Shown: piece after piece, positions 16,078-18,468 of the stretch
How the letters are laid out: every line of letters begins with the position of its first letter
Position numbering within the stretch: position 1 is the first letter of the stretch
Virus record (IMG/VR): IMGVR_UViG_3300047560_002804
Span: 1 to 43,783 of that record
Length of the DNA: 43,783 bases
Direction: 5' to 3' (one strand)
Origin: a virus
Notes under the pieces: model-generated
The model's input: only the letters and a program-made list of their open reading frames with translations
What the model was told of the DNA's origin: nothing
Database searches by the model: none
Position numbers and translations under genes: made by a program

Positions 16078-16670
16078 TAGAACGCATTCCCTTCGATCGC
16101 AACTTCTATATTATTGTTGCAAATGTTCGCACGCCCGAGTTTACTGAAATAACCAAAGTAGCAGCCAACGATTACGATCATCCACTCGCCAATAACTATT
16201 CCAACTTAGAGCCTGATAGATTTTTGTTTTATAATATCGTGGTATATGAAGACGAGCCGATGATGTTTTTTGGAACCGAGCATAGCGATTGGATGCCTCC
16301 AACGGTAGCAAGATCCTACGCGAGATTCTACAAACATCCCAAGTACAGAAAACCGGATATGTGGAATTTCCAAATTCCGGCACTAAAAATTGTACTTGAT
16401 TACGATGAGTACCAACCGTGGTTAGATCGATATGGTATAGAGACTCTTATCTTTACGAGGAACATGACCTCAAAGAGAGATGCTGTTAGGTTTTTATCAG
16501 GAAAGAGTGCAAGCTCTGATAGGTTTCTCTGTGGGAAAGGCTGGTCCTCTTACCCTAGGCTGTGCAACATCAACAATACGTTACAACACGTCTATTGGAA
16601 AGGCAAAGAAGATCTGAGTTTCTTAGCGGATATGCACCAGCTTGATGAACCACCATCCTGGATCGATTAA
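16074..16670 (+). CDS. Hypothetical protein (198 aa)
   Basis: Unrecognised soluble protein with many aromatic residues (PPTVARSYARFYKHP, DEYQPWLDRYG). Third gene of the plus-strand operon, starting inside the previous stop (ATGATAG). Its 3' end overlaps the convergent desaturase gene by 48 nt, a tight packing seen elsewhere in the window. An acyltransferase-like fold is conceivable but no motif supports it. Confidence 0.65.
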   Translation: MIERIPFDRNFYIIVANVRTPEFTEITKVAANDYDHPLANNYSNLEPDRFLFYNIVVYEDEPMMFFGTEHSDWMPPTVARSYARFYKHPKYRKPDMWNFQIPALKIVLDYDEYQPWLDRYGIETLIFTRNMTSKRDAVRFLSGKSASSDRFLCGKGWSSYPRLCNINNTLQHVYWKGKEDLSFLADMHQLDEPPSWID

Positions 16671-17318
16671 ACCGAACCTTGGAGAGTGAGGTGCATCGTG
16701 GTGATTCTTATGGTATGTTTCGCCTGCAGTAAATAAAGCAACATACGGAATGTTGATAGGCGTGTGATTCCTATGACCAATTAAATTGACGAACACAAGA
16801 GCAAGAAAGCTGAATCCAGTCACAGCAAACCACGATAATGGATTGAATACAATACTCCACAGCACAAAGTATGCAATCATGATTGTCCAATAATGGTCGA
16901 CTTGGAACATCACGAAGCGGTCGCTCAATAAACGTCGCGACGCAAACCTCCTATCAAATTTATGCATCGCCAAGTTTAAATTATTAATAATTGATTTATG
17001 AGGTCCGTGAGGATCTTTATCTGTGTCTGTGTATCGGTGATGACGATGGTGAACATTGACCCAGCTGACCGCAGGCATGTAAGCGTGTCCAGCTCCTAAC
17101 ATCAAAAGCACAAATTCAATCCAACGTGGACATTTCCATGATGAGTGACTCAAACACCGATGGTAGTAACTCGATATTACAATAGTACCGACAACAAACC
17201 CGTAAAGTAAGCTCAGAAACGTTGTTTGTGGATCTATGACCCAGCCAACCATTCCAATCAATGCTGAGATATAAAATACAAACTGATGTGCGATGCTGTA
17301 TCTTGCTTCATCCAACAT
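16623..17318 (-). CDS. Membrane fatty-acid desaturase (delta-9 / acyl-lipid type)
   Basis: 231 aa integral membrane protein. The three histidine boxes that bind the diiron centre are intact: HRCLSH after two N-terminal membrane segments, HHRHH in VHHRHHRYTD, and HKNHH in ETYHKNHHDAPH. Four hydrophobic segments give the usual topology, slightly shorter than bacterial homologues (~280-300). It introduces a double bond into acyl chains at the inner membrane. Its ATG overlaps the 3' end of the ketoacyl synthase by 11 nt, so the two are co-translated. Confidence 0.9.
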   Translation of the reverse strand: MLDEARYSIAHQFVFYISALIGMVGWVIDPQTTFLSLLYGFVVGTIVISSYYHRCLSHSSWKCPRWIEFVLLMLGAGHAYMPAVSWVNVHHRHHRYTDTDKDPHGPHKSIINNLNLAMHKFDRRFASRRLLSDRFVMFQVDHYWTIMIAYFVLWSIVFNPLSWFAVTGFSFLALVFVNLIGHRNHTPINIPYVALFTAGETYHKNHHDAPHSPRFGLIDPGWWFIKLVHIR

Positions 17319-18468
17319 TCGGTACCTCCATTACTAAAGCAATACACCGGCCACCAAAGCCAAACGAATTTTTCATTGTCGTAATAGATTGTTTGTCGAG
17401 ATGTATAGGGCTTGTCGGTAAGTTGTGAGAATTCTCAAGCGGAGACGTTAGTTGATAATTATATCCAGTGTGGCCATGTTGGCTGAATAGGATGGAATAT
17501 ATCATCTCATTTATTCCAGAGGATGTTAGCAGATGTCCAATCTTACCTTTACATGAATACATAGGAGCGTCCGTCAACGTTCGGACTGCGTTATATTCAA
17601 TTACGTCCCCCACAGGTGTTGACGTTGCATGAGCATTGACTGCATCCACGTCATCTAGACCAGCGTTTAGTAGTGCTTGTCTCATAGCAGCAATTGCCCC
17701 TTGACCGTGCGGGTCAGGCGCCACATCACTTCCCTTATCCATCGCGATACCAGGCTTGTGGATCTTTGCGTATATTGGAGCATTCCTCTTTCTTGCTTTT
17801 TCTTCTGACTCAATGATAAGGCAACCAGCTCCTTCAGCCAACACAAACCCATTACGAGTTGTATCAAAAGGCTTACTTACATTAGAAATTGCTCCAAGTG
17901 TATGGAATAGTGATGCTGTTGCAGGCGAAGGACTTTCTGCAGCTCCCACTATTATATAATCATAATCATCAATACACCTCATGGCATAGTCGATAGATGC
18001 AAGACCAGTAGCGCATGCAGCATTTAATCCGTCACTGAACCCTTGGAAGTTGAACACAGAAGAAACAAGCGATGCCGATGCTCCTGGAAGCGAATCAATT
18101 AAACGACGAGGACCGAGACGCCTTGCATTACCGCCATAATAGTTATCATAAAACTGATCTTGTGAGTCTCTCGGTATATCGGAAGTGAATAATACACTAG
18201 CATTACTACCTTTCTGCACTCCAGCCATCTCGCAAGCTTGATCTACTACATGAAGCGCTAGACGCGAGTTGTTGGATAAATGTAATCCATTGACACCTTG
18301 CGGCAGTACCGGTGCTGCTCGTACGCCATACTTCGTATTAATCGGTGTGTTGGTATCCATATGAGTGGTGAACAGCTGGTCACTCATATAGTTGCGATAG
18401 CATTCGTCAGGAGTGCTGCCTAGAGCATCTATTAAACCAAATCCAGTAATGCAAGCAGTGTTTGTCAT
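17308..18468 (-). CDS. Beta-ketoacyl-ACP synthase (FabF/FabB-like)
   Basis: 386 aa, near full length (E. coli FabF 412). Thiolase-fold motifs: active-site Cys in NAACATGLASID, first His in VNAHATSTPVGD, Lys-Ile-Gly-His in KGKIGHLLTSSG, and C-terminal FGFGGRCIALV. It condenses malonyl-ACP with an acyl chain in fatty-acid elongation in the cytosol. Pairing with a desaturase suggests phage control of chain length and unsaturation. The start has no clear Shine-Dalgarno. Whole-gene acquisition from a bacterium is likely. Confidence 0.92.
   Translation of the reverse strand: MTNTACITGFGLIDALGSTPDECYRNYMSDQLFTTHMDTNTPINTKYGVRAAPVLPQGVNGLHLSNNSRLALHVVDQACEMAGVQKGSNASVLFTSDIPRDSQDQFYDNYYGGNARRLGPRRLIDSLPGASASLVSSVFNFQGFSDGLNAACATGLASIDYAMRCIDDYDYIIVGAAESPSPATASLFHTLGAISNVSKPFDTTRNGFVLAEGAGCLIIESEEKARKRNAPIYAKIHKPGIAMDKGSDVAPDPHGQGAIAAMRQALLNAGLDDVDAVNAHATSTPVGDVIEYNAVRTLTDAPMYSCKGKIGHLLTSSGINEMIYSILFSQHGHTGYNYQLTSPLENSHNLPTSPIHLDKQSITTMKNSFGFGGRCIALVMEVPNVG

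Follow-up and report, generated by a model that had tools for sequence, protein, structure and literature searches.

Why would a bacteriophage carry a condensing enzyme of fatty-acid synthesis whose reading frame runs into that of a desaturase? The locus lies in IMG/VR virus record IMGVR_UViG_3300047560_002804, a 43,783-base stretch of bacteriophage DNA from an environmental sample (the window, whose positions are used throughout), and consists of genes for a ketoacyl-ACP (acyl carrier protein) synthase (KAS) and a fatty-acid desaturase (FAD). A sequence-only reading had proposed the two as a phage fatty-acid module with complete catalytic motifs and overlapping frames. Both open reading frames lie exactly where it placed them, on the minus strand, and we consider it probable that they form a phage-borne, co-inherited two-gene module through which the infected cell makes modified acyl chains.

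The KAS gene (17308–18468, minus strand, ATG start and TGA stop) encodes a FabF/FabB-type condensing enzyme of 386 aa, identified by its Pfam domains, catalytic set, fold and membership of a phage-specific clade. Both halves of the enzyme are recognized by Pfam (ketoacyl-synt PF00109 and Ketoacyl-synt_C PF02801, 72.6 bits each, against cut-offs of 20.8). The catalytic set C152, H280, K307 and H312 and the GFGG loop (370–373) are present, and an AlphaFold model (pLDDT 89.6) adopts the thiolase-type KAS fold, with FabF 4ls8 as its best match (TM 0.92). The best NCBIfam model is also FabF (TIGR03150); the score of 186.1 bits does not reach the equivalog cut-off of 493.75. By sequence and model, the protein would thus work like a KAS but should not be named FabF. 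Escherichia coli FabF (KAS II), which lengthens 16:1 to 18:1 chains in the temperature control of membrane fluidity, shares its fold and catalytic set, but the two are only 25–27% identical and the window protein belongs to a clade found only in phages.

The FAD gene (16623–17318, minus strand, ATG start and TAA stop) encodes an integral-membrane desaturase of the stearoyl-CoA desaturase (SCD) type, 231 aa long, with a match to FA_desaturase (PF00487, 38.7 bits, cut-off 29.7). All of its boxes are present: HRCLSH (H53, H58), HHRHH (H90, H93, H94), NLIGH (N178/H182) and HKNHH (H203, H206, H207), which together give the HX4H, HXXHH and HXXHH boxes and the NxxxH histidine. By sequence, the sole credible match in the PDB is a distant one to human and mouse SCD. 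The AlphaFold model (pLDDT 90.9) has the four-helix SCD1 membrane fold, matches only stearoyl-CoA desaturase structures at E ≤ 0.001, and superposes on mouse SCD1 6wf2 with a TM of 0.78. Loss of active-site residues in close relatives, which would have spoken against two working enzymes, was looked for: the KAS catalytic residues and GFGG loop vary little or not at all across 21 phage KASs, and the eight FAD histidines are invariant in 18 phage FADs.

The two frames overlap, as the earlier reading had it, and they do so by 11 nt. On the coding strand the junction (17308–17335, minus strand) reads GTAATGGAGGTACCGAATGTTGGATGA, with a GGAGG, a six-base spacer and the ATG of FAD all inside the 3′ end of KAS. 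Because this ribosome site and the start codon lie within the end of the upstream gene, translation of FAD is likely coupled to that of KAS. A TTGACG-16-TACATT sequence is present as a possible KAS promoter, but promoter matches occur at chance level and we do not claim it. At the other end of the pair, a convergent gene of 198 aa (16074–16670, plus strand), with no function assigned, overlaps the 3′ end of FAD with its own 3′ end. An equally placed convergent frame overlaps the FAD end in two other loci (L088 and L092; loci are cited by their L numbers), and by BLAST, among the KAS loci, only L106 holds a homolog of the convergent gene.

Could the pair simply be bacterial sequence, whether contamination or a very recent acquisition from a host? 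The databases give this idea some footing, as certain supposed phage matches to KAS are plainly bacterial, with rpsL, rpsG and fusA beside fabB; part of the bacterial matches within IMG/VR (L131, L136, L139, L149) cluster with the FabB/FabF of bacteria and were excluded. The window itself speaks against it. It holds 36 tRNA genes, a permuted tmRNA (transfer-messenger RNA), a tail protein similar to phage tail fibres, a nucleotidyltransferase with 41% identity to phage proteins, and a metallophosphoesterase–glycosyltransferase pair (PlcP–GT2, discussed below) that it has in common with viral contigs at 70–90% identity. Other genes of these contigs are of the T4 replication type, among them those for ribonucleotide reductase, a PhoH-like protein and thymidylate synthase. 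The GC content of KAS–FAD equals that of the window (43.5% versus 42.9%). A tree of 107 KASs has a branch (SH-aLRT 100) that parts the 25 phage proteins from the 78 bacterial ones sampled, and a leave-one-out profile scores the window KAS at 380.5 bits, whereas the best bacterial protein reaches 335.7. The same test places 20 of the 21 phage KASs likewise, the exception being L117, and no outlying phage-like KAS turned up among 299 scanned genomes of a single bacterial phylum. As both tree and profiles group KAS with phages and not with bacteria, we rejected a bacterial or host origin of this kind, which we hold to be extremely improbable.

How widespread is the pair? Scanned with KAS or FAD as single sequences, viral contigs yielded no relatives; alignment queries did yield them. 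A search with a KAS alignment returned 80 loci, of which L087–L119 are phage and many of the lowest matches are bacterial FabF/FabB. A FAD profile places a FAD downstream of KAS, within 1 kb and in the same orientation, in L087/L088, L092, L094–L096, L098/L103/L105, L107, L111, L112, L113 and L115, that is, in about ten distinct lineages of phages that are only distantly related and for the most part uncultured. The background by the same profile is seven FADs in the 1,020 kb of 80 GT2 loci (0.007 per kb). Because adjacency recurs in so many distinct lineages, chance is excluded. The two genes are direct neighbours or overlap in the window, L094 and L111–L113; two small genes separate them in L088 and L092, and one hexapeptide-transferase gene does so in L107. 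In L091, L099, L101 and L104, the FADs lie 4–7 kb upstream of KAS. The module is also expanded in places: L111 and L113 have two FADs each, and in L112 (5590–11677) KAS is followed by five FADs in tandem and, after them, by a FabI-like enoyl-ACP reductase (213.6 bits, under the equivalog cut-off of 440 bits). These expansions fit acyl-chain chemistry, and the L112 set is possibly a pathway to polyunsaturated chains. A MaoC dehydratase in L115 passed its threshold with only 14.9 bits and is not claimed.

Recurrent adjacency might still be functionally meaningless if KAS and FAD were independent auxiliary genes that merely share a hypervariable region, and some phages do carry KAS alone, and many FAD alone. 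We give this explanation little credence. Adjacency lies far over background, with order and strand preserved and the frames overlapping in several lineages, and the distances between KASs correlate with those between FADs: the two identity matrices give a Mantel r of 0.80 (p = 5e-5) over n = 10 loci, which are not fully independent. In the FAD tree, the KAS-linked FADs form groups that match the KAS groups, and they sit apart from unlinked phage FADs and from the 11 bacterial FADs sampled. Both trees are quick ones with long branches. As the distances of the two proteins co-vary, KAS and FAD look like a pair inherited together in phages rather than a stray host gene. Together with the recurrence of the pair and the phage-only KAS clade, this supports the phage module of the sequence-only reading.

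What would such a pair do? In the mechanism that we infer, from substrates and double-bond position to the reliance on ACP and reductases of the host and the consequence for the membrane, KAS would condense host malonyl-ACP with host acyl-ACP, and host FabG/FabZ/FabI would complete each step, so that chains would grow by two carbons per KAS step. The membrane-bound di-iron FAD would then add a cis double bond in an oxygen-dependent reaction with host electron carriers. The longer, more unsaturated acyl chains would enter host phospholipids, and also glycolipids if the neighbouring PlcP–GT2 acts as proposed below. KAS–FAD would in this way bypass, aerobically, the control that the host exerts over its synthesis of unsaturated fatty acids. 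We presume that host ACP, malonyl-ACP and reductases serve the module; use of host ACP is suggested because none was found in the KAS–FAD records, contigs of 234 kb and 223 kb included. An ACP was found solely in L122, L126 and L127, where the KAS is divergent and has no FAD near it. These three are virus records of 110–340 kb that belong to the divergent KAS clade and bring their own ACP. Among KAS–FAD phages, the only over-threshold SDR is in the L112 record, and it is the FabI-like one; a PlsC-type acyltransferase was looked for in these phages and none was found.

A change in membrane fluidity through elongation and desaturation, as the sequence-only reading proposed, is plausible. Several points weigh against the module reading. 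No electron donor for FAD was identified. KAS may differ in substrate, because its score lies well below the FabF equivalog cut-off. It can probably also act without FAD, because several phage KASs (L106, the L109 group, L117/L119 and the L120–L127 clade) have no FAD nearby. To these may be added the incomplete independence of the ten Mantel loci and the limited bacterial sampling of the trees (78 KASs among the matches listed, and 11 FADs).

The distance of KAS from the FabF cut-off also leaves room for a different product. KAS could make a specialized acyl or polyketide compound, such as a signal, a lipid modification of the virion or tail, or an antioxidant, with FAD tailoring that compound and not bulk lipid. 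Five tandem desaturases in L112 exceed what bulk fluidity would need, and the module adjoins tail-fibre-like genes in L087/L088, L092 and L111–L115. We nevertheless regard this as unlikely, since no dedicated ACP, ketoreductase or polyketide synthase domain lies near KAS–FAD, and the single extra fatty-acid gene is the FabI-like enoyl reductase, an enzyme typical of fully reduced fatty acids; its presence in L112 speaks for the chemistry of fatty acids over that of polyketides. The tail-fibre setting, for its part, fits the T4-like hypervariable region, where auxiliary genes collect (PMC7029224).

The same shortage of partner genes, with neither a phage ACP nor a full fatty-acid set, could instead mean that KAS is a host-takeover factor, one that halts host fatty-acid synthesis by binding ACP or by decarboxylating malonyl-ACP, while FAD only adjusts existing lipids. 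The nucleophile speaks against it: all 21 phage KASs retain Cys152, whereas known malonyl-ACP decarboxylase ketosynthase domains have Gln at this position. We give a takeover role even less credence than a chance sharing of a hypervariable region. A two-gene module for modified acyl chains stays the probable reading, and its proposed function is well motivated; we find it more interesting as a recurrent, co-inherited unit than as a single locus.

The earlier reading had called the gene set uncommon for phages. This does not hold for desaturases, but it does for KAS and for its coupling to a desaturase. Phage desaturases have been described as auxiliary metabolic genes in Arctic-brine and Nitrospirota phages (PMC7300359; PMC7678222) and in cyanophages (Roitman et al. 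2018, as cited in PMC8224337). Like the window FAD, they are phage-encoded membrane di-iron enzymes with three His boxes, proposed to raise unsaturation. They have so far been read one by one, as single borrowed host genes tuning fluidity, whereas the FAD of the window comes coupled to a KAS, within a KAS-linked group that is distinct from unlinked phage FADs. The closest precedent is one sentence on freshwater pelagimyophages PMP-D and fonsimyophages, which names fabF and stearoyl-CoA desaturase (PMC7029224). These are the same two enzyme types, again in aquatic T4-like myophages, and the sentence lists them, along with a 2OG-Fe(II) protein, among genes of lipid biosynthesis. The host there is SAR11; the window, by contrast, has a betaproteobacteria-like permuted tmRNA, and the mention comes without coupling, phylogeny or spread of the gene pair. 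An acpP–fabF–fabG cluster of Rhodobacteraceae prophages (PMC8224337) likewise places an annotated fabF in a phage context, but it keeps the host fab gene order, lacks a desaturase and may be flanking host DNA. Lists of viral auxiliary genes also include fab genes (PMC10653327, PMC12783922, PMC8224337). In the open-access literature searched, we found no account of a coupled KAS–FAD module or of a phage PlcP–GT2. If our reading is right, phages of many lineages run an acyl-chain programme of their own, and its compact two-gene form makes it testable by expression and lipidomics.

Does the module extend into its neighbourhood? The sequence-only reading had joined KAS–FAD to adjacent LpxH-like, GT2 and outer-membrane genes as a single envelope-remodelling island, and on this point our analysis departs from it. 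The 'LpxH-like' gene (20207–21016, minus strand, 269 aa) lies outside the KAS–FAD transcription unit and failed the cut-offs of both LpxH models (43.2 versus 134 bits and 34.1 versus 190.35 bits); against LpxH structures, the protein reaches only about 20 bits. It is 57% identical over 237 aa to a Pseudomonas aeruginosa homolog in L247, which is followed by an overlapping glycosyltransferase gene, as in PA3219–PA3218, the validated plcP–agt1 pair through which glycolipids are formed in phosphate stress (PMC8528852). From this neighbour and the published operon, we infer that the homolog is PA3219. L247 is the P. aeruginosa plasmid pHPA0698-2, where the plcP–agt-like pair sits amid other chromosomal-looking genes. 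Because the LpxH cut-offs failed and the best-matched P. aeruginosa protein precedes a glycosyltransferase gene, the window gene is better read as a likely PlcP-type phospholipase C of phospholipid-to-glycolipid remodelling, and not as a lipid A enzyme.

Directly downstream of it lies a glycosyltransferase family 2 gene (GT2, 19421–20131, minus strand, 236 aa; PF00535, 70.4 bits). Its relatives in the best 80 viral contigs (L003–L082) are 69–75% identical; PlcP is found in 77 of these 80 loci, at up to 90% identity, and adjoins GT2 on the same strand in 74. Such conservation is striking for auxiliary genes, as the other genes of these phages differ. PlcP–Agt remodelling of phospholipids to glycolipids is known from bacteria under phosphate stress (PMC4796936, PMC8528852, PMC8231724), and the window resembles it in its putative PlcP-type protein and adjoining glycosyltransferase. 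The partner in the window and most phages is a GT2, however, and not the GT4 family of Agt, and it shows no similarity to the P. aeruginosa glycosyltransferase. One KAS phage group (L108–L110/L116) has PlcP followed by a GT4 that is 40% identical to the P. aeruginosa enzyme. Bacterial plasmid homologs of PlcP adjoin polyphosphate kinase or a glycosyltransferase, and in Pelagibacter phage Mosig (L369, 2906–4741) a PlcP homolog stands head-to-head with a phosphate ABC transporter gene. The Mosig protein is annotated as UDP-2,3-diacylglucosamine hydrolase; its arrangement suggests a role in phosphate stress. By its position, the window GT2 suggests itself as a candidate partner in phospholipid-to-glycolipid exchange.

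PlcP–GT2 is a cassette separate from KAS–FAD, because the two are parted by a tmRNA and by a terminator-like hairpin and none of the 18 PlcP–GT2 phage records tested (18 of 18), most of them fragments, was found to carry KAS. The tmRNA (19109–19471, minus strand) sits between GT2 and the outer-membrane protein gene, and the hairpin (18517–18538, minus strand), found in a terminator scan as an intrinsic-terminator-like site with a 9-bp stem and a U tract, lies between that gene and KAS–FAD. Seven terminator-like sites were found in the region against 3.9 expected, and the one at 18538–18517 is the strongest. The outer-membrane protein gene itself (18558–19091, minus strand) encodes a small, secreted, beta-barrel-like protein with a signal peptide and a closing F in its translation, and has no match, and thus no relatives, in Pfam, PHROG or NCBIfam.

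It is possible, and we put it forward tentatively, that the two cassettes are two lipid programmes: PlcP–GT2 would swap phosphate head groups for sugar, freeing phosphate for phage DNA, and KAS–FAD would remake the acyl chains of those lipids. One or both programmes would be present in related phages, as in the L109/L110 phage, which has KAS alongside PlcP and an Agt-like GT4. To our knowledge, wholesale exchange of host membrane lipids driven by a virus has not been described for phages. The open-access literature searched held no paper joining plcP, phage and auxiliary metabolic genes, and none that took up auxiliary metabolic genes of phages together with lipid remodeling and glycolipids. 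A PlcP-like reading of the 'LpxH' of aquatic phages would correct a misleading annotation in many of them and tie infection to the phosphate-saving lipid remodelling of their hosts.

The rest of the window has features of its own. The permuted (two-piece) tmRNA encodes the tag ANDEKFALAA; its best Rfam matches are tmRNA_permuted and beta_tmRNA, and the betaproteobacterial model weakly hints at a betaproteobacterial host. The tRNA array (1172–14301, minus strand) comprises the 36 tRNA genes, covers all 20 amino acids and is interspersed with small genes. With its CUA anticodon, one of its members (1747–1821, called tRNA-Pyl) is a possible amber suppressor. Stop-codon recoding by this tRNA was considered and rejected, as TAG is a normal stop and read-through gives no convincing longer genes. 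The nucleotidyltransferase (23233–24222, minus strand) is of the tRNA CCA-adding/poly(A)-polymerase kind and a plausible partner of so large an array. A BPL_N/glutamine-amidotransferase-like gene (6485–7174, minus strand) also occurs in 18 of the 80 GT2 loci, with 53–56% identity in the best. Two further phage genes are directed at the envelope: a D-alanyl-D-alanine carboxypeptidase (Peptidase_S11; 7958–8785, minus strand) and an SPFH/Band 7 membrane protein (27418–28269, minus strand).

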